From positions 496,001 through 560,000 of the forward strand of contig JAKSYS010000881.1 of the NCBI GenBank assembly GCA_022925895.1: a stretch of 64,000 nt of DNA, given 5' to 3'. This document shows positions 3,240-59,740 of this stretch, one piece after another. Numbering within the stretch: position 1 is the stretch's first letter; each line of letters opens with the position of its first letter. The notes under the pieces were generated by a model that saw nothing but the letters and a program-made list of their open reading frames with translations, was not told where the DNA came from and made no database searches. Source of the DNA: Fragilaria crotonensis. Its lineage: Eukaryota > Bacillariophyta > Fragilariophyceae > Fragilariales > Fragilariaceae. A program made the position numbers and the translations under genes.

Positions 3240-5300
3240 TGCAACCGGATAACTATAAGGCAACTTTTTGCAAAGCCAAATTTCAAAATGAGGACTTTAG
3301 TTTTGTCCTTGCAAAACTGCAATTCACTATATGGGTGGGCCTTCCAGCAAACATTTGCTTTCTGAATTTGCTTATGATGCAACAACCTTGCCAGCTCAGT
3401 TGGATCAACACCTTGGCTAAAATTCTTACTTCCTCATGAAAATCAGAGCACTTCTGGCATACAAACTCAACTGCCCCCACTTTATTGCTGGAACTTCCTG
3501 AGGATGTCTTGCTGTGTCCACCTAGAATGTAGAGCACAAGATCTGGAACTTGCATATCCAAACATCAGCATTTCGCACCACACGCAAGATTAGCTACTAG
3601 GCAACAATGATGAAATAAAGACAACCTCACCAACTTCCTTTTCAAAACTGCCAACCTTTGCTGCAGTTAGATACAGTATTTGACTTGTGGTGCTTGGCAG
3701 TAAGTAAACAAAAAAAGACAGTCATTTAACCAGCCAATATTGGCTGGCACGAAGTTGTCAAGAAAACATTGAGGAACAAATGGATATCAGATGAGATTTA
3801 GTTTCCACCTTTGGAGGCTCATGGAGGAATTGTTTGATGCACCAAAAAAGCCACTTCATTGTGTGAAGCTGCTTAGCATTTGTATCCAACTTGAAGCTTA
3901 CTAGAAATGCTCTACAACTTGCTTGACTGGTCCGGGTTTGGCTGCAGCCTTCCCAAATTCCTCATCCTAATTGACTGCAAGGAAAAGGGACATGCTGGAT
4001 TCAAAGGATTTCAGCTTTTTGCAGGAATGGGACCCTTGACCACATCACTGAGGTCTACCAAACCAAAGTGGAGTAGTAGCCACTACTACACTGCCTAACA
4101 TAGTACATCAACTACACCTTGTTGTGGTGCTGCTTAGATTGGATGATTTCACTGACTCACACCAGACTGGTCAACTCTGAAACTTCCCCTTGCACCTTTT
4201 CTTAAAATCTGCAACTCGCTCAACGTCATTGGTGCACCATTTAAACTTCACATCCAAAAGAACGTAACTTGGCCAACAAGCATTTCAAAACATTTCTATG
4301 TTGCTTGTGTTGACATCAGCCATTTGAACCAAATCATTTACCAGCTGCTTTTCAAGTGTATGAAGACCCAATGATCTCATGTCGTATAAGAAGATCAACC
4401 ACTGGGAAGCAATGCGAAACGAAATTTCAAAGCCAGAGTACTAGCAGAAAACCCTATAAGCCATTCCGGTACCTCATCATGGTAGACATTCAGAGCAGTG
4501 ACAGGGGTTCAATCTCAGATATTGGCTTCTTTGCTCCATAAATCTCCTCCTACCCACGTGTCAACAGGTAGTCAATCATATTGTCAGAAAATAATCTGCT
4601 CTTGTAATGATCCCACATCAGCACTGATTGTTGAATTTAACAACCCCTATATGCTGTCTGCCTTAACGTTAAGACCGCACTTGCTGGCATCCTTGCTATG
4701 CCATGATGCTGCTGCACACTAGGAGGTTGAAGCACCAGAGAGATTTCCTGTGCTTGAGCAGCAGTGCTTGTTGTAGTCCAAACATATACTCATCCACCAA
4801 GGCTTGTCAACAATGACCTGGAAAATCTAAAACAGATACACAACCATTGATGATGTCCCCATTTATCATCATGATTCATTTACAGATTACTGTGTCAACA
4901 ATCCTCAGTAGAAGGATCCTTCAGGACCCACCACCATCTATGCCGCTGATGACAGAGACTTCTGACAGCATCATATGAACTTATCACACTCAGAGCAAGT
5001 GCGCCTACATCTTGATTGATGCATGTTTCTGATGGTACAGCAGTATCACAGTGACACAGCAGCATAGCTAGCAGTCCTAATGAGGAGCTCGTTGGCCTAC
5101 AGGAATGGGGCACGCACCTGGGTCGCTGCAGGTCCCAGCAGCATGGTGACAACCCAATCATTATTATATTCTAAGATTCAACGATGGTCGTCACATGGGA
5201 ATCAATTTCAAATTGTAAACAGTACAGAAGCTTCTTCCAAGGCGAGGGACAGAAAGCTGGTGAATGTACAAAATGATGAGGATCTGAATGTATGTTGAAT
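3240..5300 (-). pseudogene. Decayed, unidentified coding-like region
   Basis: About 2 kb with no long frame. Minus-strand translation gives short coding-looking patches in several frames. Near 4,175-4,240 there is 'FKWCTNDVERVADFKKRCKGK'-like text. Near 3,905-3,965 there is 'DEEFGKAAAKPGPVKQ'. Near 3,283-3,561 there is a Cys-containing patch with 'FVCQKCSDF'. These patches are separated by stops and frame changes. The base composition is poorer in GC than the neighbouring genes. It is most likely a dead transposon or dead gene read on the minus strand, but I do not recognise the family. Confidence 0.3.
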
Positions 5301-38187: not shown

Positions 38188-38561
38188 TGTTGTTTTCCCC
38201 TAGTTTCACGACAACACGATAGGCCATAAACCAAGCGTCTTGATATCGCAAACACGCTCAGAGTAAATTGGAAATAGAGAACAAAGTCAATCAAACCTTG
38301 ATTCTATTAACTGGATTGTTTTGAGAGAATGATCTCTTCAAAACACTCGCACTTTTAGTGCGTTTCCTAATACCGGCGTTTCCCTTGCTCGGAGACATCG
38401 GTATCTTCTTTGCGTTGCTTGCGACCGCAGGTTTTCGTACCACATCGGCCCAAGTTAGTTTGGCCACGTCCATAATCTTACTCTTACGGTTGCCTTCAGG
38501 GACCGTGTCGACTACACTAGTAACAGTACGCCCATGGCTTCCAGATCGCTCTTCCCCAACA
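38188..38561 (-). repeat. Copia LTR, left copy
   Basis: 374 bp, TG...CA ends on the plus strand as well as on the minus. Nearly identical to 42098-42468. It is the 3' repeat in the element's own orientation; the tail of the pol reading frame runs into it. Confidence 0.9.
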
Positions 38562-40210
38562 CGCTCCTCGACTGGAGCCGTGGGGTTCAATGCGAGGGTG
38601 TCGACGTGCGCGTGTCCGAGTAGCACAGCCTTAAACTTACGAAACAAATTCCCCTGAAGCGGTTTCGTGAAGAAGTCCGCTAAGAACATTGCAAGGGTGG
38701 GACAGTGTCGGATAGTGATGTTCGCATCCTTCGAGCGGTCCTTGATCCAGAAATACCGAATGTTAATGTGCCGAGACTTGGGTCCCGCGGAAATGCGCCC
38801 ATTTGTCTCGAGTTTGATAGCACTCTCATTGTCCTGCTCAAAATAACTTTCGTGTACGCTGTAACCTTGTGCCTCGAGGAACATCTGCACCGCCCACAGA
38901 GTGTTGGGTAGATAGTCGCTGGCACCGACCGTTTCGGCTTCCGTGGAACTCTTTGTTACCAACTTTTGTTTGCCCGACTTACAGGCGATGCCTCCTCTTC
39001 CGAACGAGATAACGCCACCAGTGTGGCTCTTCATGTCAGGGTGCACGGCAAAAGCGGCATCCACCCACGTGCGTAATCTTCCCATGTCGTCAGCGCCGAG
39101 AACACATTCGTCGTCCATGTGTCCCTTGAGGTACTCCAACACCCGTTTCAACTTGGACTGGTCCTGCTGTGTACTCTTTGCCACTCTCGTACACAAGAAG
39201 GCGATCGGCAGAAGTATATCCACGCGCGCACGTAGCGAGACGTACAACAATTTTGCGCACACGCTGTGAAATGTAATCCCTTCGGCCTTTTCCAACGGTG
39301 GTGAGTTTTCGTTAACATCGAAAAGATTCCTCTGCGCAGGGGTTGTGGCCTTGTGTACGATGTCCATGCCACACTCCGACAGCGCCTCCTCAAGGTACTG
39401 TTTCATGGTGATTACCGCCGTTCCCTTTCCCGTGTACCGGATCTTCATCCCGAGAAAGGAGTGCTCCAATCCGCGCGTTACTGTCATCTTGTCAAAACGC
39501 GCCTCGAGTCGGTCAATAATCGACGTTACTACGTCGGGGTTCACGTGCAATATCTTCGTGTCGTCCACGTACCAGGCAATGGTACACTGTTTGCCTTTGA
39601 TTTCGCAGTTCGCAATGCAAGAGTCGTATGGATTTAGCACGAAGCCCATTTCCTTAAGTTCACCGTAGAACAAGTCATACCACAACAGAGCCGACTTGAC
39701 GCACCCGTAGATGGCCTTTACTAGTCGGACGTACAGTACCTTGACTCCGTTCTCAATGGCCACGTTCTTAATGTGTTCCGGGTTTATTTCGCATAAAATG
39801 TCCACGGAGGCTCCCACAAACTTCATCAGCACGTAGTCGTCCATAAAAGCCTTAAGGTACGCTCCAACAACGTCGGCAGTTCCGACGTCACGGTTTTCGT
39901 ATGCGTCAATTAGAATGGACAGCATCAGCGCGTCTTTCGACACCGTTGGTGATGCTGTTTCGGATTTATCGTATAAGAACCGCTGGCGCCTCCCGTCGGC
40001 AACTGTGCGGCCCTTCAGTGTTCCATCAAGCTTCTCCTTGATCAGGTTGATGGCCTTGACGGCAGCCTTGCGCTGTTCCCAGGTCAGTGTATTCGGGTCG
40101 ACTGATTCGTACACCTCCAACTCTTCCAGTTGTGCAAACTCGTTCATCAATGCGGCCTCAGCCGCCTTGCCATGCTTCTTGATGCCGGCTTGTGCCGTCA
40201 TTTGGTTCAT
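38291..40210 (-). CDS. Copia pol part: reverse transcriptase and RNase H
   Basis: Part of the Copia fossil. The reverse transcriptase is recognised by 'TADVVGAYLKAFMDDYVLMK', the 'YGCVKSALLWYDLF' block and the catalytic 'IAWYVDDTKI'. RNase H is recognised by 'WVDAAFAVHPD', 'TKSSTEAETVGASDY' and 'KSRHINIRYFWIKD'. The order and sequence are those of Ty1/Copia. Confidence 0.85.
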   Translation of the reverse strand: MNQMTAQAGIKKHGKAAEAALMNEFAQLEELEVYESVDPNTLTWEQRKAAVKAINLIKEKLDGTLKGRTVADGRRQRFLYDKSETASPTVSKDALMLSILIDAYENRDVGTADVVGAYLKAFMDDYVLMKFVGASVDILCEINPEHIKNVAIENGVKVLYVRLVKAIYGCVKSALLWYDLFYGELKEMGFVLNPYDSCIANCEIKGKQCTIAWYVDDTKILHVNPDVVTSIIDRLEARFDKMTVTRGLEHSFLGMKIRYTGKGTAVITMKQYLEEALSECGMDIVHKATTPAQRNLFDVNENSPPLEKAEGITFHSVCAKLLYVSLRARVDILLPIAFLCTRVAKSTQQDQSKLKRVLEYLKGHMDDECVLGADDMGRLRTWVDAAFAVHPDMKSHTGGVISFGRGGIACKSGKQKLVTKSSTEAETVGASDYLPNTLWAVQMFLEAQGYSVHESYFEQDNESAIKLETNGRISAGPKSRHINIRYFWIKDRSKDANITIRHCPTLAMFLADFFTKPLQGNLFRKFKAVLLGHAHVDTLALNPTAPVEERVGEERSGSHGRTVTSVVDTVPEGNRKSKIMDVAKLTWADVVRKPAVASNAKKIPMSPSKGNAGIRKRTKSASVLKRSFSQNNPVNRIKV

Positions 40211-42468: not shown

Positions 42469-42700
42469 TTAGTGCTAAAGAAAACGGTAGACCTCGTGCT
42501 CAAAGCCATGTATCCACGGTCACTTGTGCTGGCGCATGCATGATCCACGTTGACCATATTGCAAGCAGAAAAGGAACTTGGACAATGGTCTCGACTTGAG
42601 GTTGCTATGGATTTCAGAGATCGCTGCTTTGAGAGCTGTCGAATGCGTTACGTGCGACACAAGATTACCACCAGCGCCTCACTATATTGATCACGCTTTA
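42469..42700. other. Intergenic, no gene seen
   Basis: Short spacer between the Copia element and the 112-bp tandem repeats. Nothing recognised. Confidence 0.5.
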
Positions 42701-43049
42701 TCCAGTTGTTCAAATGAGTGAACTGACCCAGCTAGTGAACAACTTGTGTTTCGATTCTGTTAACGCCTGTGAAACTCGCCGGGCAGAACTTTGAGGCGGC
42801 GCTTCAGCATTGTCCAGTTGTTCAAATGAGTGAACTGACCCAGCTAGTGAACAACTTGTGTTTCGATTCTGTTAACGCATGTGAAACTCGCCGGGCAGAA
42901 ATTTGAGGCGGCGCTTCAGCATTGTCCAGTTGTTCAAATGAGTGAACTGACCCAGCTAGTGAACAACTTGTGTTTCGATTCTGTTAACGCATGTGAAGCT
43001 CGCTGGGCAGAACTTTGAGGCGGCGCTTCAGCATTGTCCAGTTGTTCAA
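42701..43049. repeat. 112-bp tandem repeat, 3.1 copies
   Basis: Units start TCCAGTTGTTCAAA at 42701, 42813, 42925 and 43037, an exact 112-bp period; the fourth copy is cut after about 13 bases. Copies are almost identical. Each holds the inverted words GTTGTTCA and TGAACAAC. The array ends just before a TATA-like box, so it sits where an upstream regulatory region would be. Confidence 0.93.
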
Positions 43050-43054
43050 AAGAC

Positions 43055-44294: not shown

Positions 44295-45037
44295 TAGTAG
44301 GTGTACTATGTAGTACTTAAGTCAGTTAACAAATAGTTTAGTTGGTAGGAATGTTTCGAGGCTTATTTTTGACCAGACGCTTCGGCCAAATCACTTCATT
44401 CTTGTGAAATGCAAGGTCAAAATGTTCCACAAGCATGGACCGAAACAGCGGTAACGATAGGTTGTTTACAGGCACGTTGTCTTTTCCAAGAAATCCTTCA
44501 GCTGTTGTCATCAAATGATCATCATCACAAGGTGGGTTTTTGTGAGTTGATATACATGTAGTCATTAATGACGGTTTATGTTTACTAAAGTGGTTACTTT
44601 TAGACTTAAATAGTTAATAGTTATATATAGTTGGTTTTTTTCTACATGTTATAATGATATAATACTTAAATATTTTTATTATCAAATTTTATCAGTGAAT
44701 TCTTGAATTATAATCAATCTATATGGTTTGATATCAACAAAAAAAGATAAACTATAAATATATTTCTGATTGAATCAACAAAGTGATGGGTATAGCGAAT
44801 TGATTTTCACTGCAGCAACCATTTTTTCAAAAATTTGACTTGGTGTTTTCTAAATTCACTGATATTGAGGCATAGTCGCCAGTTAGGTTTCCGAGGCACA
44901 GTGAATGGCGTTGTCTAAAACTTTTACCGTATTTCTGGCATTTAATGGCTGTTGTTCAACAGGTCCAGTGATCTTTTGAGTTCATTGTTGAATCTTCGAC
45001 AATTCTGTGCATTGCTTCTCTCTTTACAAGGATTCAC
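44295..45037. other. AT-rich spacer before the transposase
   Basis: Strongly AT-rich from about 44,560 to 44,900, unlike the host genes. A minus-strand frame of 75 residues at 44338-44565, ending 'KPRNIPTN', has an ATG but no recognised domain. The left end of the DNA transposon probably lies in here; I could not find its inverted repeat. Confidence 0.45.
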
Positions 45038-48000
45038 ATGCCGAAACGCACATCCTCTACTACGTTGTGTGACGGATGTCACAAACCCTTCAAGCGAATC
45101 CAGGTACACTTGAATCACAATCTTGTTTGCAACAGCATTTATGCTTCTCGGAAGAGCACAATTGATCTGTCTGCTGGTATTGGTGGTACTTTGATTAACA
45201 GGAGTGCTGCCAAGGCCGCGCAAAACCACGCTTCGTTGTCCTCACATATCCTCACAGGACAAGTAAGTACTGGACACCAGGAGGGTCACAGTCGTCAACG
45301 ATTTTCTGCACCATTCGAATTCAGTTCTGTTCAGGATGCTGGTCGTGCTGCTTCTGTTGAAGCACTAGATGGTGACGATGACCCCGATGAGCATGAATTG
45401 GACGACGACGATGACGTCAATCCTTTTGGTGAGGAAGAGTCGTTGACGACGCCACCTGATTTGGTTGAGAACGGAACGACAGACCCTGACGAAGGAGTCC
45501 TTGAATTGTACGAGGAACTCCTCCGCCTTCAGTCAAATCCATTATCCTCGCTGGCCAAATTCTCTTGTGAAGAGAAGGTTCATATTGAGTTGCTTCAACT
45601 CCTAAAAGACTTGAAGGCGCCACTTTCTGCGTTTAAGTACATACTGAACTGGGCCGCGAAAGCAAATGAAAATGGCCACCAATTTCAGACCAGTTGCCAG
45701 CCATCACGTGAGACGGTTACAAAGATGTTGTTCAGTCGTTATAACATGCATGGTTTGGTTCCCAAGGAGAAGAAGTTGTATCTGCCCTATTCAAAGCGTA
45801 TTGTTACGATGGTATATTTCGATGCACGCCAAGTGTTTGCGTCATTGCTGTCATGCCGTTCCCTCAATAAGGACGAGTGTTTTATGTTTCATGAACAGGG
45901 GGGATCCATTTGCTGTGCCTGATGCGAGGACATCAGTAATTGGTGACATCAACAGTGGTCGGTGTTATCGAGAAACCTATAAGAAATTGGTGAAGAATCC
46001 GCAGTCTGACATGATACTTCCTTGTGTGCTTGCAATGGACAAGACGCACATTGACCTTCCGGGTAGACTCCAGATGGAGCCAATCACAATTTCTCACGGG
46101 TTATTGAAGCATGAGTTTCGCCGTTTACCCATTGCAATGCGAATTTTGGGTTACATCTATCACGGGAGTGCCTCACGTAAGGCTCAGAAGGTTGACCTCA
46201 ACGTTGATTACAATGAGGCACCCAATGACCTTCCTCCTGGTGTTGCGACTGTGAGCAATGTTCTAAAACCTAAAAAAGGCGTCACCTGGCCTACATACAT
46301 GTTGAATGAGTATCACATGCAGATTGCATTTATTCTTTCGGCATCAGGTTTTTTTAAGTTTGCAGGACAAAGGCTTCAAGTGGAAGCTTCAATACAAGAA
46401 GACTGTCCACGACGTCGTATTTCACCCCTTTGTCCCTTTCATAATTGGTGACACGGAGGGTCACGATCGTCTTTGCGGGCACTACACCGCACGATTTGCA
46501 AAAATCAAACAACTATGCCGTGCATGCGAATGTCCCACAGAGATGACTGGTTACTCGAAATCTGTGTACCGCCACAGGAAGCCAAGTCATGTTGGAGGTT
46601 TGGTGAGAGAGGGTGATGTTGAATCCTTACGCGCACTATCACAAAATTATGTTGTTAACGGCTTTAACAAAGTTCGGTTTGGCCAGCACAATGCGAGAGG
46701 AATTTTTGGAGCTTGTCCTGGTGAAATCCTCCACTTGATCACACTTGGGTGGTTCAAGTACTGCCTTGAATCCTTTGCACACCAAGCTGGCGCAAAGAAA
46801 GGGAAGAAATCGGCTGCGCTTGAACATTATGACGCTCTTTGCGCAGACATTGGAAGTGCCATGGTACGGAAAAGTGACCGCGACCTACCACGTACAAATT
46901 TTCCGAAGGGTTTTCCACGGGATCTAATCTGATGGGTCATGAGATACCAGGATGTCTCCTAGTCAAACTCTTCGCATTGCACACTAGTAGTTTCCGACAA
47001 ATCTTTCCCCTCCTAAAGAGTCAAAGAACAAGGCTGCGAATGGAAAGGGATGGAAGAAGAACGAGAACGGAAAGCCTGCAGAAAGAAAGGGACAACAGAA
47101 ACGGCCGTCGGCAACTGTGGAAGCAGGGAATGATGCTGCGATGCACGATGCGAAGCAGGAGGAAGTGAAGTATGTACCACCCCCACTGCCTAAACTAGGG
47201 TGTCCCAAGCACACCGCAGATTGGATTCACATCATTTCTTGTCTGCTGCAATGGCATCAATGGATGAAGCAACCGACAATAAGGCGTAGTCATGTGATAA
47301 GGTTGGCCACTGGTGTTCGATGGCTAATCCGCAATGTTGCCAATATTTGCCCACGGATGTCGGGAATGAGGAACAATACAATCAAGATGCACCTTGCGCT
47401 TCACATCAGTGAGGATATACTTGATCATGGTGTCCCCGACGTGGTAAACTCATCATATGCAGAATCTGCACACATTCCACTTGCAAAGAATACATCTCGC
47501 AATACTCAGAAGCGTGTTGCATCCTTTACAAGACAAGCAGCACACCGGTACCATGAGGATTTGGCAATCTTGGTTGCCAATAATGATGTGGACGAGTTTG
47601 AGGCCAAGAAGCCTCCAATCCCTTTAACTTCCTCTGGTGCTGCTGGTCGTCGGTTTGTTCTATCGCAGAAACCCTCCTCAGCTGGTGATGACATCATGTT
47701 TGCGTGGAACTCTCCCCGCGCGACAGATGATTCGCCTAAAAACAGGCTTCCATCTCGTATCTCCAAATTTATTATGAAATATTGTTGCCCAGATGTCCCC
47801 AGGGGTTTGGCAAAGTCTGTGCAATGCTTCACGGAGTTTATCTCTGAGGAAGGAGATCGGTACAGAGGCCATCCAAACTATCATGGGAAACGTTGGTGCG
47901 ATCATGCAATGATCAATTGGAATCTTGATTTCCCCTTGCCAGGACTCATTCACACCTTTGTGGACCTTCGTCATCTCCCAGATAATACTCGTATTCGCAC

Positions 48001-48610
48001 GAAACTACAAAAGAATCTCAAACCTGGAATGTATGCGGTTTTGGAATCCTACGATGCAGAAGATGCAGATCCGGCTGTTCCGAATAATATGATCGGCCTG
48101 TACACACTTCATAGGGAACCAGAAGAGGGTCGTGGCAATATGCTGGTATCTATTTACCTCATCGAGGTTGGGAGCATCTTTGCTCCCACAGTTGGGATTC
48201 CGGACTTCGGGAACAGAGACTCAGACAAGTATTTGTTCCTATTCCGAAGAAGAGAGGAATGGCCATCAGCATGGGATCATTTTGTACAGTACTGTTGCAA
48301 GAATAACGAGGAGGAAAGCTTAGAGTCTGAATACGAGGAGGAGGATGACAAAGACAACGAAGAAGTCAACGAGGACGACGAGCAGGATGATGACGACGAC
48401 GATGAGCAGGAGGATGACAATGATGACGATGACGACAAGAATGACGATGACGATGACGACAATGACAATGACAAAGAGGATGACAATGATGACAAGGACG
48501 ACGACGATGATGATGATGATGAGGACAATGACGACGATGACAACAACTCGGATGATAACGATGATGACAACGAGAACGAGGATGATAACGACGATGACGA
48601 CGACGAGTGA
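45038..48610 (+). CDS. CACTA/Plavaka-like DNA transposase, several frame breaks
   Basis: The ATG is at 45038 and the stop at 48608-48610. The N-terminus has a zinc finger, 'CDGCHKPFKRIQVHL'. The catalytic core reads like the CACTA/KDZ (Plavaka) group: a first Asp in 'LAMDKTHIDLPG', then 'IGDTEGHDRLCGHY', then 'CRACECP', and a 'GIFGACPGEILHLI' block followed by 'GWFKYCLESF'. The C-terminus is an almost pure Asp tail. The coding text is split by four frame changes, each at a homopolymer: G6 at 45898-45903, T7 at 46349-46355, T4 at 46911-46914 and C4 at 47007-47010. They cancel out, so total length still fits about 1,190 residues. The product would cut and paste its own element in the nucleus. 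Confidence 0.65.
48336..48607 (+). repeat. GAY/AAY trinucleotide tract encoding an Asp-rich tail
   Basis: About 90 codons of mostly GAC, GAT, GAG, AAT and AAC at the 3' end of the transposase frame, giving an Asp/Asn/Glu tail. The opposite strand gives a poly-Ser shadow frame. It looks like a decayed triplet expansion. Confidence 0.85.
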
Positions 48611-48662
48611 ATACTCAACAAGTACAATGGTAGGTTACATACGGCAAGCTAAATTCTAAACT

Positions 48663-50757
48663 TTAGTACTCCTTTCTTCTCCTTTTCTTTTTCTTCCATT
48701 GTTGTGAAGGTGCACCAACGCCTACTAATTCCATCCCCAGATTGAGCTCATCATCAAAAGGTGTGGTCACTCCTCCAATCGTACTATCATCCTTGCACGT
48801 CGTGGACGATGATACGATGGCAGCACATGCATTGACCCTGCCCGCCCGAACAACCTTCTCTTTGCATGCCGTGAACGTTCCGTAAAGGTGATTGTCAAAC
48901 CTTCGACCGCCACCCGAAAAAACTTCGGCGTTGTCCTCGCCGTCGGGTTTGGAAACCGAAGTGCAGTGCCGAAGCACTCGCCCATCCCAGCTGATGGCAA
49001 CTCCGTGATAGAGGCGCACAGCCAACCCAGAGAAAGGTTTGCCATCTGCTCGTGTGCCAAACACATTTGGCATTATGAAGTACCAATTAGAGGCTTTGCC
49101 GGGCATCTCTTCCGTCCACACAGCAAAGCCCTGCGAACAATCATTGACATCAAAGTGTGAAGAGTTGCCGAGGTTGACACTCATGTCAATAGTGCGCCCA
49201 ACCCAATCCCCATCCTTTCCGTCCATAGGAGACATCATCGGAACACCAGAGTCGCTTTCCAAAGTCTTGATCAAGTGCATCAAGTCAGGGTAACACAGAC
49301 GGCCAAGGCAACAAAGAGCAGCAACCATGTCTCGCAGGACAAGTTCGTCAACCTTTTCGTTTGCAGCGTAAGGAATCATGGTAGCCCCATCTCCCTCCAC
49401 ACGCATGCCAATGGCGTACATGTTACCAACATCACCCCCCGTATTCCTGACCCCACTAGTTGTTCGCATGCCCCGGCGAATTGCAGTGTTACACCGCGTG
49501 ATCTTCAAAAGCAAAGACGCACGGCGGGCTATTCTCAATTTCAAGTCGTCCATCGGCACAGGATCTGTTTTCAGCATGAGGGTATGCCTCACCCTCACCA
49601 CAGTTTGCCGATCCACCGAGGTCCCACACGGTGCATCATCAATCACGACGTCTACCATCGGATCAACCACGGGATCCAACACCAAGCATGAAGATGGAAG
49701 GTCAAAGTAACGTGTACCCGAAGCGTAGTGCCGACCGCCGAGTCGGGCAGACTTAGATCCCGCAAGAATAGAGTTGAATTCCAGTGCCAGTACCTCCCGT
49801 GGCCATGCCAAGGAAATTCTGTCCTGAGATAACATCTGGGGCAACATGGGGCCGTCTTGATCAGCGCACTGATTGGCACGAATGATCACACGTTTGTCGC
49901 AAAGAATATTGTACGTCATGCGCCACACCGAAACTGGAAGGCCATCAGAACCGCCACCACAATGAAGTCGCTTAACATAACCGCCATCACCAATGGTGTA
50001 CATAGGAACACGACGTTGTTGAGAGTCCAAAACTTCACTGCGATGTAGGCGAAGCCAACTCATGTCGTGAGGAACAAGCGTCTTTTCAACACCTGCGTCA
50101 GCACGTCGTCGATCACATGAGCAGTAGAAGACACCAGCATTGGGGATGAAAGCTATCAACGCACGGAACTGATAGTCCACAGAGTCATCAAGATCATCCG
50201 GTTTGAAGCATCTCATCACCCGAACATCATTGCCATTGTTAATCTCGCTTGTAGTGGGAACAATTGCACGATTCAGCACAACATCCATGAAAAACACTTC
50301 ACAGACAGATTCCCCAGGGAGATGCTTCACATGCGACTCGTGGAACATATCTGATAGCTTATTGATGCGATAGAAGTCGCAGATGCGATATCCCACAGAA
50401 TCCAAGGCCGCTCGAAAGAATGAGACAGGAGTGCCGCAGATATCGTCATCAACGCCGCCAATTGGAGGAAGAGGAGGATTCAGCACGGCATCTCTGAAGG
50501 CTGTCGCAACCCGCTCGCGATAATCCTCCTGATCAAAAACAGTACCTGCATCAACAGTGAAAGTACACGCTCCTTTGACGGAAGGAATCCTTCAGCAGTC
50601 CGATTAAAGGCAGAGAACTGCCAGCAATGTCATGGCCTGCAGCACCAACCCCAACCGCACGCGGATTGCGTCCCATGGCTGAAACAGAGCTCTGCGCCGG
50701 AAGCGTACGCCGCGCGCTAGCTATCCTGGCGCGATCTCGTGAAGGATCTGCAAACAT
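48663..50757 (-). CDS. 2OG-Fe(II) dioxygenase-like protein of a DNA transposon
   Basis: The main frame (50486-48663) continues upstream without ATG. Joined to a frame starting at the ATG 50757 by one base near 50,575, it gives about 697 residues. In main-frame numbering a double-stranded beta-helix signature lies at 436-513: 'NLGNSSHFDVND' gives HxD (H444, D446), then 'NWYFIMPN', then 'YHGVAISWDGRVLRHCTS' with a distal His (H507). The spacing fits a 2-oxoglutarate, iron-dependent oxygenase. The C-terminus is basic, 'WKKKKRRRKEY', perhaps nuclear. It converges on the transposase with 52 bases between the stops, so both probably belong to one element. KDZ elements in fungi are known to carry TET/JBP dioxygenases. 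Whether this is one is inference; the substrate is unknown. Confidence 0.55.
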
Positions 50758-50769
50758 GATGATACCGAC

Positions 50770-50996
50770 GATAAGGCGGCAACGCGATCACTAACGACAA
50801 GTTGTTCACCCCTGTCTGGGGAAACAACCAATCCTGAGTTCGCACGCGCCAGAAAAACAAGCAATTCCCCCTCTTCACGTTGAGTGATAAGGCAGCACGT
50901 CGTCACAAAGGACAGATTTGCAAATCCCTGTCTGGGGAGAAGGCAATTGTACCAGAGTTCCAACACGCCAGAAAAGCAAGCAGTTCCCCCTCTTCA
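50770..50996. repeat. Two-copy imperfect tandem repeat, 116-bp period
   Basis: Units beginning GATAAGGC at 50770 and 50886 share CCCTGTCTGGGGA, GAGTTC, CGCCAGAAAA and TTCCCCCTCTTCA in the same order. The pair lies just upstream of the ATG of the dioxygenase-like gene. It could be its promoter or the subterminal region of the transposon. Confidence 0.75.
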
Positions 50997-51855
50997 GACG
51001 ACAACAAGCATGAATGTGGTATACCTCACGTATGTGCTGGGCACAAAGAGTGCAACAGCAGTGTGGATGTCCATAAATTGTTGTGAAAGCAACTCGTGCA
51101 AAATAGTGCATTTCACGTCGATTCCAGTATAACCAATACTACGTGCAAGGCACGCGTTGCCCATGTGGGACTTCAGGCCAAAAATTTCCTTCCCCCCTCA
51201 AAACTGTCTAAGTACAAAAACAAATAAACATGTGTTAGTCATTTATTTTTTCATCTTCTTCATTTTGCCATGGCAACAAGACCCTAACTAACGTAGCCAT
51301 AGATGTGCTAAATCCTTATGTATTCAGGCACACATTCTTGTCACATACAGAAATTCCAAGTCGAATGCATCACCAGCCAGCCAGTACTTAAGATGATAAC
51401 GGTAATTTACCTTAGTACTGAGAACTGACGCATCGCAGCACCTAAAAAAAACTCGCAGCACTTAGTAACAAATCATATATACCAAGCACATGCGCATCTT
51501 CATCGTACCGAGTGAGTGTACATGATACGCAAACATCGGAGTATTCCACGAAGTAATCGTGGCGGTTACAAAACGATTAGCGGCAAAATATTGCCATATA
51601 AACGTATACACATCATGATATATTGCAGGAATATAACTAGTAAGCCTTCAATCCCCGACACAGCAATATTTATTTACAACGGTAGCTTGCCACAAACAAT
51701 TGTACAGTGCCTTTAGTAATAATTTCTGTCGACACACCCATTCAAATTGACTCTGTGTCAAGCATACAAACAACATGTGTGCCCAACTCTTCAAATTTAA
51801 ATGGGAGTTGTGAACAAAAGTGCTTCGCGCTCAAAACTTTTCTTGTGTGCAAGCG
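50997..51855. other. Intergenic, transposon flank
   Basis: AT-rich in its second half. It probably contains the right end of the CACTA-like element and the start of the next, but I could not pair inverted repeats. No gene seen. Confidence 0.45.
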
Positions 51856-53221
51856 ATGAAACTTGTTCCCACAATTGTATACTTCTACAACAGAGTAACT
51901 GAAGCCATGAACAACGGAACTGTATCTGACAAATCAGACTCCGAATCTTTATATGAGGATGAAGACAGCGGCAGTGGCGAAGACGAAATTGCCGAACCGT
52001 CAAAAGGAGGAAAGCGGCAAAGAGAACATATCGAAGAAGAGGACCATGACAACGAGGAGGCTACGGCACGGTCTAGTAGCCCGGACCACACATATAACAC
52101 AAGTGACGGAGAAGAAAATAGTGACCAAGAACGAGAGTGGGATAGGGAGTTGGACAAAATGCTTCCCTGCCGGGGTGCCGAGGAATTACATTCGTCCGAT
52201 GATGACGATGATGATGACGACTATGTTGTTCCTGCAAAACGTGGAAGAACATCGTCAGCAGGAGCTGCGCAGAATTTGGAGGGGTTGATACGAGTAAGAG
52301 GTATGTCAGCAAAAGAATCGTCCATGTCGGAAAAACACCAGGAGAACATTGCAGATAGGGTCACAACTTACGTCAGAAAACATATGTTTCGAGTCGTCAA
52401 GTTTATCAGCAATGAACACATGTTTGGTAAGGCTTTCAAGGAGGTGATGGACCACGAGTGTGTGGCAAACCGAGATCGTGTGAAATTCCAGATGTTATAT
52501 GAAAGTGTTTTTAACCATGCGTTGAACAGCAAGAGGAGCACATGCGAGCAGGCGGGGAAGAACATCATGATGAGAGAACTAAAACAATTCAAGGAAGATA
52601 GAATGGATGTGTTCTCAATTGATGAATTACAAAAAATGAGGAGAGCAAGTACGGAAAGGGAGAAAAAAGCATTCCTCTGGTTCTATGGAACATTTCTTGA
52701 GTGCGTTTGTGGCCTGAAGCACTGGGGTGTACAAAAGAGTAAGCAATTGGTGTCGCAGGCGACGAGCTCGGCCACAAAACACGGCAAGTTGGTGACCATC
52801 AGCGACGAGGCTTTCGCTCTCCTTCTCTACGACAACTATATTGAGAAGTGGCTCAAGGCATTTCAGCGAGAGGAACAACTGCGGCACGAGACCCCACCAG
52901 CAGAACCACAACCAAGGAGCGGCGCCGGCAGCAGGAAAAGTCCAAGAGGGAAAGGGAGAAAGGCAAGTATACTGCGCAAAAACAGGCCACTGCAAGTATG
53001 GTGGATGGAGCCGCGAAGGAATGGCAAGGTACAACGAATTCTATCACTTGGTGAAGGCTGATCGCACGTGTGAACAAGCCATGGATATGGAGCGTGAACT
53101 GCTCAATCACTGCATTGCACTGAAAAGGAGAGGAACAAATGGTGAAGGAAGTCGAGACACCTCCGATGGAGAGCAGGCAGAAGCATTAGAACCAGTGGAA
53201 GCATGTTGGGATTTGGAATAA
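51856..53221 (+). CDS. Transposon accessory protein, unknown function, two frame breaks
   Basis: A start at the ATG 51856, or the later ATG 51907, gives about 455 or 438 residues once two breaks are allowed for. The N-terminal 130 residues are very acidic (Ser/Asp/Glu, a run of eight Asp), followed by a basic patch 'PAKRGR'. The middle is helical, with 'ISDEAFALLLYDNYIEKW'. The C-terminus has a basic KERRRQQEK-like helix, then 'GHCKYGGWSREGMARYNEFY' and a final helix. The breaks are at a C4 run (52892-52895) and an A5 run (52978-52982); one added base at each restores one frame. It converges on the Harbinger transposase. PIF/Harbinger elements usually carry a second protein for nuclear import and DNA binding, so that is a likely role, but no Myb/SANT domain is visible. 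Confidence 0.5.
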
Positions 53222-53808
53222 CAACGCAATTTATTGAGGTGCACAATTATTATGATCATCACCATAACATTCTGAAACGAAACCGCAACGAGTGATTACT
53301 CCACTTTTGAATGTGGAGATGTCGACATGCAGCGTCATTGTTAAACATAGAAACTTAAACTATACACATATTGTTGTCAAGCAATCAATATTTCAAGCTA
53401 GTAAGCAACGTTTAACAACGACTCTGCACAATTTAAAGAATTTCATTTCACCAGATAAAGTTATAGCATTTATCTTTTATTGTTATAAATGACTATAATA
53501 TGGTGACAGATACCCATTAAAATTGATTTATTCAATTTACATTGTGATTCAAATTTACTGCATAACGTTGCTTAAAACCAAAAAAAGCCATGTAAACCAA
53601 TTTAAAAGTTCAAAACACAAAGCAAATTGTAATTGCAATCGACAAATCTTGTTTTATTTTGTTTTTTGTTTTGATGTTTGTTGAGTATTTGCTTAAAGGT
53701 GTAGTATGATACTAAACTGTGAAATATAACTTTAAAATGTTAGTGCTAAATATTTTATAATCATTATTCCCCGTCCACTAACCATATGTATTGAATCCAT
53801 TTTATTTT
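53222..53808. other. AT-rich spacer between convergent transposon genes
   Basis: Clearly richer in A and T than the host genes. No coding frame or repeat structure is recognised. It contains the 3' ends of both convergent genes. Confidence 0.5.
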
Positions 53809-55391
53809 TTAAAAGTCACCATATACCACCTTGTGATGATGATCGCCGATATTGTCCTCCTCACTGTCAATCGCTTCGTCATCACGAGCCATATAGCCAC
53901 AGTAACTTCCATCGTACGTAAATGGCCCCCTATCACCATTGAGATCCATCAACCTCCGGATCGATTCCGGAATATCGCTTTCATTTAGCGCGCCGCCTTC
54001 AGTTTCCCAGTGTGACGGCACACCGCTTTGCCATCCATCACTCAAGCCGTCCACATCCAACAGCCAATTGTGAAGGCTGCAGCATGTCAACCAGATGTTA
54101 TCGGCGACTTCTGTGTTGTGAAGTCGTATGCCAGATTTCAAAATTCTCCAATGCCCCTTGAGTATACCAAACGTACACTCGACATCTTTCCTTAATGACT
54201 CTAGCCATTGGGAGAAGCGAAGCTCTTTTCGATTAGTTGAATTCTTATATGGCGGTACAGTTGTTGACCACTGTAAATATCCGTTGTCAACAATTACATA
54301 GCAGCCCTTGATAGTGATTTTTTCCCCTGTCTCGGTGTGCAAATCAAAGTTCATGGTTGAATTAAAGTCACCCTCGCGCAATTGATGCATCAGTCCATCA
54401 AAGCGAACAAGCGTCTTGTCATTCCAACGACCAGGGTGGCCGGTTGTTGAATGAAGTATCTTTCGGCGATGGTTCACAGTAAGGTTATATGTTCGTGTTG
54501 TCTGAGAGGACTTGAAGCCGAGATGAGGCTGCCTCACCGAAAACCTGACCTTCTCAAGCGTGATGTGAGTTGCATCGGTGCTTCCGATACAACCTGGAAA
54601 TCCAGCTTTCCTGTATTCGTACTCACATTCTCTCAACTCCTGTAGAGTCGATGGAGCGACCACAAACTTGGGATAAAGGTACTTTGCACCAAATTCCACA
54701 AACTTGTGAAAAAAACGCGGTGCACATCTCTGGCAATAAATGTCGATTCCTCAAGGTCATCGAATGTCCATCCTCTGCCGAGGTAGCGCAGACTACCAAG
54801 GAGCAACAGTTCTATGGGAGAAACTCTTGTCTTTTTCTTTGTTGAATTATCGTTTCTCTCTCTCCACCTTATGAACATATCATCCTCGTCGGAATCAAAA
54901 TTCTCGGGTTGCAGCATCCTCAAAAGTTCTAGAAACGAGTCGTAGGGCAGTCGAAACCTCTTCCTAAAAAGTCGATTCCACTGCACATCATCTACCTTCG
55001 GATCCTGTATATACATCATCCACCATAGGCTACGATGCGGTGTCATCGGAGAAATAACTCCAGTCGTTGGATCCTTAAATGTACGGACATGTCGTGATCT
55101 CTTCATTGGGGGCCCTTCGATTGTGTCTGCCGGTAGTTCATGTTCGATAGACGAAGATGCCGATTCAATCATGTCCATCAGAAGGTTCATGAACTTCTTC
55201 TTTGCGGCAGCCTCATCGTCTTCTTGATCAAGATATTCTTGAAAATTGTCATCATTAAATGTGCCATTCTCGTTGTAGCAAGCCCATTCATCAATGGGAC
55301 GAACGTCGTGCACACCATCGCGAATGCTTTGCATCAATGCTGTCACACCGGTTCGAAAATTCTCTACCGGTACACTATGAGAAGAACCCAT
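53809..55391 (-). CDS. PIF/Harbinger DDE transposase, one frame break
   Basis: ATG at 55391. Two overlapping frames (55391-54633 and 54699-53809) join at a run of seven A on + (54709-54715). One added base gives 'HRVFFHKFVEFG' and about 527 residues. The N-terminal half holds the helix-turn-helix part, 'FRKRFRLPYDSFLELLRML' and 'LLLGSLRYLGRGWTFDDLEE'. The DDE nuclease has the first Asp in 'GSTDATHITLEK', the second in 'VIVDNGYLQW' and the Glu in 'LRKDVECTFGILKGHWRILK'. These are the family's usual signatures, followed by 'LTCCSLHNWLLD'. It would excise and insert a Harbinger element with a 3-bp target. The ends of the element were not identified. Confidence 0.85.
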
Positions 55392-55796: not shown

Positions 55797-58700
55797 CTAC
55801 GCTAAATCTCTCCATTGCGCGGGGAATATTTCATCTGGTATTTTGATAGGGTGCCGAAACGCGCCTTTCCAGTGCATATCACCGCGGAATGGTCGATTGA
55901 TGAACGTCAACTCAATTGCAGGTAACTTGCGGTGGATCTGCAGAATACGTGCCGCTGGAAGCTCCGGGATTCTACTTCCCATGGAAATCTTGAAGTAAGC
56001 AACTTCAAAGGTCTCCATGAAAGGGTCGGCATCGATGATAACACAGGGAAACCGTTCCACCTTGTTAAGAGAGTAGTCGAATCCTTGATGGTCGAATTCA
56101 ATTCCACGAAAGGACGTCAGCACTGTTTCGTTGGTTATTGACGGAATCACTTCACCAACCTTCACTAAATGAATCCATTCCAGATCTTCGTTTGTTGTCG
56201 AGCAAACAGAAAAGTGGTCGTCACTCCATTGATGATGCGCAGCGTCAAATTTCGCAAAATTCATCTTATAAACCATCATCGATGACATAACGTTAGAATC
56301 CTTACATGGGGACTCCCAACTAGCCAAATGCTCTTGCCAAGCCGATTCCCACTCAGGACCATAATCGATGAAAATTTCTTCATCAACCTGAATATCCCGA
56401 GTTGCCACGATGTCAAGAACGATGGTAGAGTACCTTTCCTGTGATATTATCGAGCCTATCAGTTCAACCGAGCAAGCGAATCGCGGGTTAAACTTCGATC
56501 TTACCTTTTCTAAATCTTCCAAAGGCCTTCGCAACACGTAATTGCTCTTTTTGTTCCAAGGTGCCCAGCGCATTCGCGCGTTAGGCTTTACCCCTCCCGG
56601 CATCCTTTCGCTGTTGTGGTTAAAAATAAACGCGTGATTAATGGGGAAGAAGTAAACGGATGAATAGGGGTGAGTGAACTGGTAGTTCAGAAACAAGATA
56701 TGATCGTTGAGCTCCATTCCCACCGACGCTGCATTCGCTCTTGTACTATTCAATTTCATCATATCTTCGCCAAAGGTAGTAATCAGCGGTGCTGAAATTA
56801 CTACAGTCCCGTCCTTGAGGAAACGCCGTGAGAACCCGCCCGCTCCAGCTTGCGGTATCGTAGATTCTTTCACGTAGACATGATCAAGACAGTGGCCTGC
56901 AGAGTAAAAAATGTCAGTCTAACGAGACTAGATCTCGTGACAAGGCGCGGCGTGATACCTACCGTGTTCGTCAAACCATTCTTGCGTTCTAATCTTCATA
57001 GTTGCTGCTGCAGTACCGTTTCGTTCTATGACACGCCTCAAATCATCGATTGAGCCAACGCTTTCCAGAGCCATTCGTGTGCGGTGCTTATCAACCACGG
57101 TCTCTTTTACCAAATCAAGAAAAGTCATCGTTTGATCGATACCAAGCTCAGCATTCTGCATTTGCGATAGCGACCAAATCGATGCTAGAACAGTGTTTGA
57201 TTCCAACCAGTTGATTCCTACAGGCACATCAGCGAAGTCATCCCGACTCACAAACCTGCCAAAGAGGTGTAAGGTGCGCGATTGCGTTCAAGAACACGTA
57301 GGCACAGCGAATCGCCACTCACCAGCTCTCTCCATAGTCGACAAACAGCTCCTCGCCTGCTCCCAAGGCAAACGACGACTTGAAACTATAATGAATATAG
57401 TCGCTGAACGCTCCGGCTCCTGGGTCCTTGCACCGATCTAATGCTGGATGAAACCTCGAGGACTCCAGACGTTCATTGACAAGACCTTGATGCGAATTCG
57501 CAAGAGCCCCATCATTTACAGCTAGGACATTCGTGTCATAAGGCGCCGAGGCCACGGCTGTTTCGAACTCAGTGAAGAATGATTTTCCGTGCCAGATGTA
57601 GTCCATCCCACTCCATCGAGGAGAGTCGATAGACACAGGAATTGCCGGCAAAGTTGTGCCGACAACAACTCCTCTACCAATTAGAGGGACGGCAGTATAT
57701 GTGCCGAAACCAGCGTTTGGTACATTGCTTGGCGCGAAATATACCCCACATTTTACGCTCCTGACTTCAACTTCGTGCATGTGATGATTTTCTTGATTTT
57801 CAGGCAAGGCGAGGTCAATTCCTAGGTCGACTTGACCGAGGTGCAGAGATGCGGCAGTAGCGTAATCACCTCTCCACCTGAAAGGAACCATTTTGTCCGG
57901 AATAGGAATGAAGTGACGAAATGCGGATGACAGGTGCTGATCAGATTGAAAGTGGGCGTCGGCAAACCTTATGGACTCTCGAGGAATGTTCTTCCACCTT
58001 CGGATCTTATTGGAAAGTGGTAATACTTTGGAGAAAGCATCGGCCTGAAATGTGCCATCGTCATTCCGAGCGAAAACATGACAGGGGTACCAACAGACGA
58101 AGTCGTTCTCACCATAGAACTGTTTCATTTTCGCGTCCCAGCGTTCTGGCGAGATGTATGGAGGAGAGAAGTAATCATGGCCTGCTTCTCCAAGGTATTC
58201 TCGTTCCTGTGCCAGAGGTTCCATGCTACATTCGTACGAATAGAAGTTTGGAAGTTCTGTTGAAAGCACGATGCCATTGTCCATGCGGTTCATTTCTTTT
58301 GGTGGGGAATAGCCTGATTCTGAGGGCGGCATCCACTCTCTGGAATGCTCCAAGAGAGCATGTTCCCATTCGGAACCGTAGTCAAGAAAGATTTCTTGGC
58401 CGACGTCGATTTGCTTGGTTGCCACAACTTCGAATGCAAATTTGACGTTGAAGTCACGCCATGTATGAGGACTCAACGACAAAAGCTCGTCCAATCCGCG
58501 TGTTCGATAGTTAATGTCAGCATCCACTCGATTCTGACTAGGTTTTGACCACCGAATCTCAGCATTCGCCGCCATGGAATGGTGGTTGATCAACGTCACG
58601 TGCGTAGTAGGGCACAGAAGCACCTGAGTTTCTTCATGCCCAAAGCAATAGTTGAGGAGAAGCTGGGTGGTTGCATTTTTGTCATCCATGTCGACATCTA

Positions 58701-59740
58701 GGACTGAACTATCCGTTACATGCAGAAGTGGGGCGGGCGCAATAATCGAACCTTTCTCCAGTCGTCTAGTGGCAAAAGCCCCACGCCCAGCGCCCTTAAG
58801 AGTGCTTGTTCCTTCTCGAATATTGTCCAAACAGTAACCTTGATACATTGTTAGTCCAAACCAAGCGAATAAGGCGTACTGGTCGTGATCTGACTCACCA
58901 TTCTCTCGCACCCAGTCGAAATGCCTAGGGATAATTTCTGCGGCTTCGACACCGGACTCTGCCATCGAAACAAGCTCCTCAAGCGTCGTTGGAAGCACCT
59001 TTGCGACAACATCGTCTTGCAACATTTCTGTCTTCAAGCGATACAAGATATCAATCCAATGCTCTTCCGTCAAATCCGGAAATTTTTTGTGATAACGAAA
59101 AAGCGCCGCAACAATCTTCCGCGCCTTCTCGAATTCGCTTCGCTGGGGAAATTTGGACTCTTGAAACCATTCCGGAGTTCCCTCAAGAAATAGCTCCTGG
59201 CCTTGTCGAATCTGCGAATTGGCGATGAGATTAAAACCATGATAACTTGTATACCCTCCCGCCATTGGGTCGTCGTATCGATGAGTTGAAGTCATCGTTA
59301 ATCCACCTTCAATCACATTTGCAAATACACTGTGATAATTCACTAGGGAATGAAGTCCAGGTAGAAAAGTTCGAGCCCGAGGTGATTCAGAGAATCCGCC
59401 AACTTTTGCAGTGTTTCTGAATTTCGGAACATTGGCAAGTGAGGCATGCGAATTCTCAAACAACAAGGACGATCAAACCAGTCGAACAACGTGCAACTCA
59501 CGCAAGAAACTTGCTCAGCAACTCTTCTCGAAGCTCATGTGACTCTAGCACCTGCACTCCAAGTCCTGGGTGTCCAATTCTTTCGCCAAGCGCGTAGTCC
59601 TTTCCAGCAAAGACACCCCAGCCGCCATTCTTCACGGAACTTTCCGCCAAATAGACTGAACATTCCTTTTCCTCCGTGCGATCCTCAGCTATGCAAGACG
59701 ATAGCGAAAGAGCCAGCAGAAATGCTAGTGACTTCTTCAT
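55797..59740 (-). CDS. Secreted protein with four SET-like units
   Basis: Four exons: 59740-59502, 59416-57323, 57255-56963 and 56896-55797. Introns are 85, 67 and 66 nt with GTGAGT or GTAGGT donors. The joins stay in frame for 1,241 residues. A signal peptide, 'MKKSLAFLLALSLSSCIAE', is present. Four SET-like units follow. Each has a Gly-rich start ('NGGWGVFAGKD', 'GAGRGAFATRR', 'NAGFGTYTAVP', 'QAGAGGFSRRF') and a C-terminal G-x-E-x-F/DYG block ('GQELFLEG', 'GQEIFLDYGSEW', 'GEELFVDYGESW', 'DEEIFIDYGPEW'). Units 2 and 4 also keep the central 'INHHSMAANAEIRW' or 'FNHNS...NARMRW' block and are each followed by a similar extra module ending 'FRHxIxIPD'. SET domains methylate lysines. A secreted or lumenal multi-SET protein is unusual, and its substrate is unknown. 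Confidence 0.8.

Follow-up and report, generated by a model that had tools for sequence, protein, structure and literature searches.

The closest described counterparts of the locus analyzed here are the fungal TET+ PlavakaB transposons, which carry PE-type TET/JBP genes (Kojima, 2025; PMC12730594). In the portions of that paper considered here, PlavakaB elements are characterized by 5'-CATCA..TGATG-3' termini and a target-site duplication of 2 or 3 bp, and relief of silencing by the TET cargo is proposed for the fungal elements without experiment. A second point of comparison is CMD1 of Chlamydomonas, an ascorbate-using enzyme that makes 5-glyceryl-methylcytosine (5gmC) and whose report, in the parts drawn on here, does not describe it as cargo of a transposon (PMC7854593). 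We analyzed a stretch of 64,000 nucleotides from the diatom Fragilaria crotonensis (contig JAKSYS010000881.1, positions 496,001 to 560,000), hereafter the window, whose own numbering is used throughout. The region probably constitutes a PlavakaB-type cut-and-paste transposon that encodes a transposase, an Fe(II) oxygenase of the predicted TET/JBP fold serving the element, and a third protein.

Like the described fungal elements, the window element combines a Plavaka-type transposase, 5'-CATCA..TGATG-3' termini, and a 2-bp duplication with a TET-fold cargo gene, and in both cases the TET gene type is common to several transposon superfamilies. It differs in its algal host and in the presence of HxD where the PE type is described as having HxE, the two having been compared by description. 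Mutator-like element (MULE/MuDR) carriers are present in the diatom; the abstract of the fungal paper omits MULE/MuDR among the carriers, and its introduction mentions MuDR twice for other cargo. The notable novelties with respect to the fungal TET-carrying transposons are the host, the sequence divergence, the MULE neighbors, and the pocket residues. The sequence-only reading of this DNA had suggested that an algal pairing would be a separate case, which holds for the host and the divergence, although the TET-carrying Plavaka elements in the fungal paper precede it as a pairing. A literature search, judged largely by title, found among the papers listed no publications on diatom transposons with dioxygenase or TET cargo, and the fungal paper was the only one found that joins Plavaka and a dioxygenase; the claim extends no wider than that search.

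Boundaries and gene content of the element

The element occupies 9,316 bp of the window (44523..53838). Other copies in the same 62-Mb genome align, whole or in part, to positions 44522-53846 with 97.8-99.3% identity, and both element ends read CATCACAAGGTGG inwards, forming a left terminal inverted repeat at 44523..44535 (plus strand) and a right one at 53826..53838 (minus strand). On contigs C177 and C405 the insertion site is empty: each carries the flanking PIF/Harbinger sequence uninterrupted, 99% identical and with a single AT, whereas in the window AT stands on both flanks of the element (44521..44522 and 53839..53840). The element is therefore delimited as 44523-53838, with a 2-bp duplication and inserted into another transposon. 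The host of the insertion is a PIF/Harbinger-type transposase frame (DDE_Tnp_4; 53809..54750, minus strand), whose DNA resumes at 44522 and continues leftwards. The 2-bp duplication was observed in five of the seven copies that could be read at both ends; the two copies without it are on contigs C138 and C295, the latter having an altered right end. The copy on contig C414 retains both ends but has lost approximately 45524-50583, including the TET-like gene, by internal deletion. The earlier delimitation of the transposon as 45038..50757 was too short, as the element reaches further on both sides and includes a third open reading frame (ORF).

The Plavaka-type transposase (44972..48610, plus strand) is distributed over four overlapping frames in the window copy (44972-45922, 45648-46451, 46306-46932, and 46991-48610), as opposed to a single 1159-aa frame in a relative on contig C529. 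Its plus-strand motifs are LAMDKT at 46029, IIGDTEG at 46441, CRAC at 46516, HLALH at 47390, and SYAESAH at 47453. Between the candidate catalytic residues are CxxC and HxxxH motifs, which have also been described for the Plavaka clade (PMC12730594, in the portions used here). The by-eye assignment of this protein as CACTA/Plavaka-like was borne out by Pfam, whose Plavaka match is below cut-off in the window frame 45648-46448 (E 5e-5) and above it in the relatives on contigs C529 (E 1.1e-7) and C109 (E 6.3e-8). The termini, the duplication, and the Plavaka profile, which passes the cut-off in these relatives, together support the putative assignment to PlavakaB. The tail of the transposase frame (48330-48607) is long, rich in Asp, and built of GAY codons.

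The oxygenase-like gene is a 642-aa open frame on the minus strand (48663..50591) and converges with the transposase, the stops ending at 48610 (plus) and 48663 (minus), 52 bases apart, exactly as first read from the sequence. The first 18 residues of the window protein do not align with its relatives, which extend about 84 residues further upstream. An open-frame relative of 747 aa is present on contig C529 (L023:6798-9038). Some TET-like genes elsewhere in the genome are located within very long open frames (1494 aa on contig C122, 1291 aa on C829, 1151 aa on C466, and 1115 aa on C285), to which extra domains may be fused. The third ORF of the element (415 aa; 51814..53061, plus strand) is a member of a large repeated family with 107 matches in the genome.

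Recurrent pairing with Plavaka and MULE transposases

A survey of transposase copies for the same linked gene, proposed along with the sequence-only reading, revealed the pairing at tens of loci. Loci were merged from the matches of two queries and neighbors were counted within 5 kb; all counts are lower bounds, since only the best candidates were scored in the search, and some survey rows duplicate one insertion, as on contigs C87 and C131, which have a common flank. The first query alone yielded 63 loci (29 with Plavaka, 18 with MULE, and 16 with neither), and a diverged gene beside Plavaka on contig C1 led us to add the second query and recount. The oxygenase-like gene is present at at least 110 loci, including 54 with a Plavaka transposase, 18 with a MULE transposase, 38 with neither, and none with both, whereas random expectation of such a neighbor is approximately 2.6% of loci for Plavaka and 1.6% for MULE. 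At 53 of the 54 Plavaka-paired loci the two genes are arranged tail-to-tail, with the transposase on the 3' side and convergent, and the remaining locus likewise has the transposase 3' of the gene, with both read in one direction. Conversely, 73 Plavaka loci retain the C-terminal half of the transposase; 38 of them have the convergent gene and 2 have it in another arrangement.

Pfam MULE matches above cut-off were found beside the gene on contigs C592 (E 5.7e-12) and C87 (E 1.6e-9). Terminal inverted repeats surround both the MULE and the oxygenase-like genes only on C592 (33 bp) and C131 (77 bp), the other MULE cases being assigned by adjacency, and a search for target-site duplications around the MULE elements of C592, C131, and C873 detected none. 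Ulp1-type (Peptidase_C48) SUMO-protease-like domains accompany MULE copies that adjoin the TET-like gene at three loci, L028:6623-8845 (plus strand), L027:1478-2620 (minus), and L025:2310-3227 (minus). The last of these, on contig C873, is part of a 4.8-kb unit (L025:1926-6768) with 38-bp inverted repeats that contains the Ulp1-like and TET-like frames; its ends are similar to those of the MULE element on C592, and no transposase was recognized between its repeats. The 38 loci with neither transposase within 5 kb may belong to a third carrier.

The history of the family was examined with a tree of the catalytic region built from 31 of the 32 aligned rows, the remaining one being too short. Seven rows labeled MULE fall into two groups of the tree and require at least two changes of carrier. 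The window copy is placed with one of the MULE sets at a support of 93/92, which is under the mark that the tool regards as strong. The rows L030, L043, and L045 are without a carrier label in the tree, though the survey places their loci beside Plavaka, and L026, whose Pfam MULE match does not reach the cut-off, is for that reason labeled weak MULE. Of 14 pairs, 12 allowed the ratio of nonsynonymous to synonymous divergence (dN/dS) to be calculated, and ten of these gave 0.105-0.36. The other two, at 0.47 and 0.95, are nearly identical pairs, as is one of the ten (0.36), and dS is saturated behind several of the low values. These values suggest that the open frames are held by selection.

These data bear on the possibility that the gene is a passenger, namely a host gene captured once and amplified by hitch-hiking with no role for the element. 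Such a history would fit the 38 of 110 loci that have neither transposase within 5 kb and the many copies of the TET-like gene that are broken. A passenger would not be expected to keep a uniform arrangement at 53 loci in divergent elements, to show mostly low dN/dS, or to have changed carriers at least twice, and, as judged from the copies of the gene, their neighbors, and their tree, we consider this explanation highly improbable. As judged from sequence comparisons, the pairing is real and recurrent and bears signs of function.

Predicted fold and conserved candidate metal-ligand residues

The assignment of the oxygenase-like gene to 2-oxoglutarate (2OG)-Fe(II) dioxygenases fared differently at the levels of sequence and structure. 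No credible match was obtained by Pfam for the window protein and 16 further members of the family, by phmmer against PDB sequences, or by two PDB profile searches, and the family has no detectable sequence similarity to TET2, NgTET1, or CcTet. In contrast, TET2, NgTET1, CcTet, and CMD1 rank above other solved structures in comparisons with two AlphaFold models, and TET/JBP structures fill the first 15 and the first 16 VIA rows for the two models. The core of the predicted structures is thus clearly a double-stranded beta-helix with its nearest counterparts in TET/JBP structures, and we rejected the argument that an empty profile search excludes an oxygenase. A BFVD fold search returned two unnamed proteins followed by a phage JBP1/TET protein (E 1.4e-5). 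At the settings used, relatives of the protein were not found in viral contigs, in bacterial and archaeal genomes, or in phages.

Residue conservation was assessed in 32 aligned family rows, some of which are near-duplicates. The motif H-x-D-x-x-D, made up of the proposed Fe ligands H479 and D481 and the proposed base contact D484 (codons within 49140..49157, minus strand), is kept in 32 of 32 rows. The proposed distal Fe ligand H542 (48966..48968, minus strand) is kept in 28 of the 29 rows that cover its position, and T544 is Thr in 27 of 30. This conservation places the layout beyond chance, and the protein has the H-x-D ... H putative metal triad of the TET/JBP superfamily. The same triad had been read from a shorter frame, counted from 50486, as H444, D446, and H507, and that reading was upheld by the alignment.

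The proposed metal ligands are the most conserved part of the protein, which also argues against a protein that keeps the fold, has no catalytic role, and serves as a DNA-binding subunit in transposition. Constant linkage to the transposase would suit such a subunit. The same family, however, also adjoins MULE transposases, and these have no transposase family in common with Plavaka; the explanation is very unlikely.

In CMD1, the metal ligands are H345, D347, and H397, and D350 contacts N4 of 5-methylcytosine (5mC); an Asp or Asn three residues past the ligand Asp makes this contact in CMD1, NgTET1, and TET2 alike (PMC7854593, in the portions used here). The H, D, D, and Trp residues of the window protein match the spacing in CMD1 (+2, +5, and +13), and D484, present in all 32 rows, fits the Asp/Asn of this N4-contact spacing. 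The residue at the spacing of CMD1 Trp358, W492 in the window protein (49116..49118, minus strand), is Trp in 28 of the 32 rows and Phe in the other 4, a likeness to CMD1 of spacing only.

Possible cytosine methylation, pocket residues, and proposed role

The genome from which the element comes contains 61 matches to light-harvesting proteins and 13 matches to the C5-methyltransferase family PF00145, one piece of which resembles HhaI by sequence. Nine copies of the element were compared, of which six cover at least 9,234 of 9,316 columns and three are partial. Differences of the C-to-T or G-to-A type amounted to 33 at 838 CpG positions compared with 38 at 3,369 other C/G positions, giving an odds ratio of 3.6 (p 4e-7). 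Deamination of 5mC would produce such an excess, which suggests that the element carries methylated cytosine, the count having no control element.

Most probably, the oxygenase cargo would bind the methylated DNA of its own element, flip out 5mC, and modify its methyl group; methylation-based silencing would thereby be lifted or not maintained, and the transposase could then be expressed. Metal binding, catalysis, 5mC as the substrate, a modified product, and a benefit to the element are inferred properties of the protein. An effect on the DNA modification that silences the element had been suggested in the sequence-only reading, and we likewise infer it as a possible consequence.

Several observations weigh against the proposal of a TET/JBP-fold oxygenase that serves its element. 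Besides the empty sequence searches, the HxD loop is modeled at low confidence (predicted local distance difference test, pLDDT, below 50 in one model and a block mean of 52 in the other), 33 of the 73 Plavaka loci that retain the C-terminal half show no oxygenase-like gene within 5 kb, and the CpG excess stands without a control. The pocket residues, compared in 14 diverse members and anchored by sequence on the stacking Phe, also depart from the known enzymes. The position of the 2OG-holding Arg (R1896 in TET2 and R289 in NgTET1), six residues before the conserved Phe, is occupied by Asn in 12 members, Lys in 1, and Cys in 1. The position two residues after the Phe, which contacts O2 or N3 of the base, is Ala in 12 members, Ser in 1, and Cys in 1. 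In the CMD1 paper, as far as used here, this position is His in TET2 and NgTET1 and Arg in CMD1 (Arg418, contacting base O2), and Trp358 of CMD1 occupies the place of the 2OG-holding Arg of TET2 and NgTET1, one reason that CMD1 does not use 2OG (PMC7854593). The CMD1 pocket also includes Arg244, Phe245, and His249. At the positions so anchored, the diatom family has no 2OG Arg in 14 of 14 members and no His for the N3 contact, in which it departs from TET2, NgTET1, and CcTet, and an equivalent of Arg418 was not found at that spacing in any of the 14. By these residues, the predicted pocket copies neither known type, that of TET/NgTET1 or that of CMD1.

The same residues would also suit a TET-fold enzyme with another target or product. 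Its target could be thymine, as for JBP, N6-methyladenine, as has been reported for CcTet, or RNA; alternatively, in place of demethylation, it could attach a bulky group to cytosine and so create a mark shielding the element. The absence of His or Arg after the stacking Phe, the non-Arg residue at the 2OG position, and the aromatic residue at the Trp358 spacing would all be accommodated. The invariant H-x-D-x-x-D, with the N4-contact spacing of cytosine-acting enzymes, and the CpG transition excess, which was counted without a control and suggests methylated cytosine in the element, both speak for cytosine as the target, and we regard this alternative as unlikely.

An apparently non-conserved co-substrate Arg together with an aromatic residue at the Trp358 spacing makes an unusual co-substrate possible; with such a set of residues the enzyme might use ascorbate or a different co-substrate, and its product might differ as well. 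A fully CMD1-like enzyme, in which Fe(II) and ascorbate or another co-substrate would be used to add a new group to 5mC of its own element, yielding a transposon-made mark common to Plavaka and MULE, appears quite unlikely. If the proposed oxygenase role is correct, the arming of transposons with enzymes that target methylated DNA would have arisen or spread beyond fungi, in a photosynthetic alga and in two unrelated superfamilies, through a diverged family that no sequence profile matches. Anti-silencing by transposons could then be tested in organisms other than fungi through base-resolution methylation sequencing, and the family would supply many natural TET-like enzymes whose pocket residues are unusual.

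The surroundings of the element include a Copia-type reverse transcriptase frame (RVT_2; 38291-40210, minus strand), a SET-domain frame (57319-59466, minus strand), and a tandem repeat (42695-43053) of three copies at a spacing of 112 bases that are 96-97% alike.

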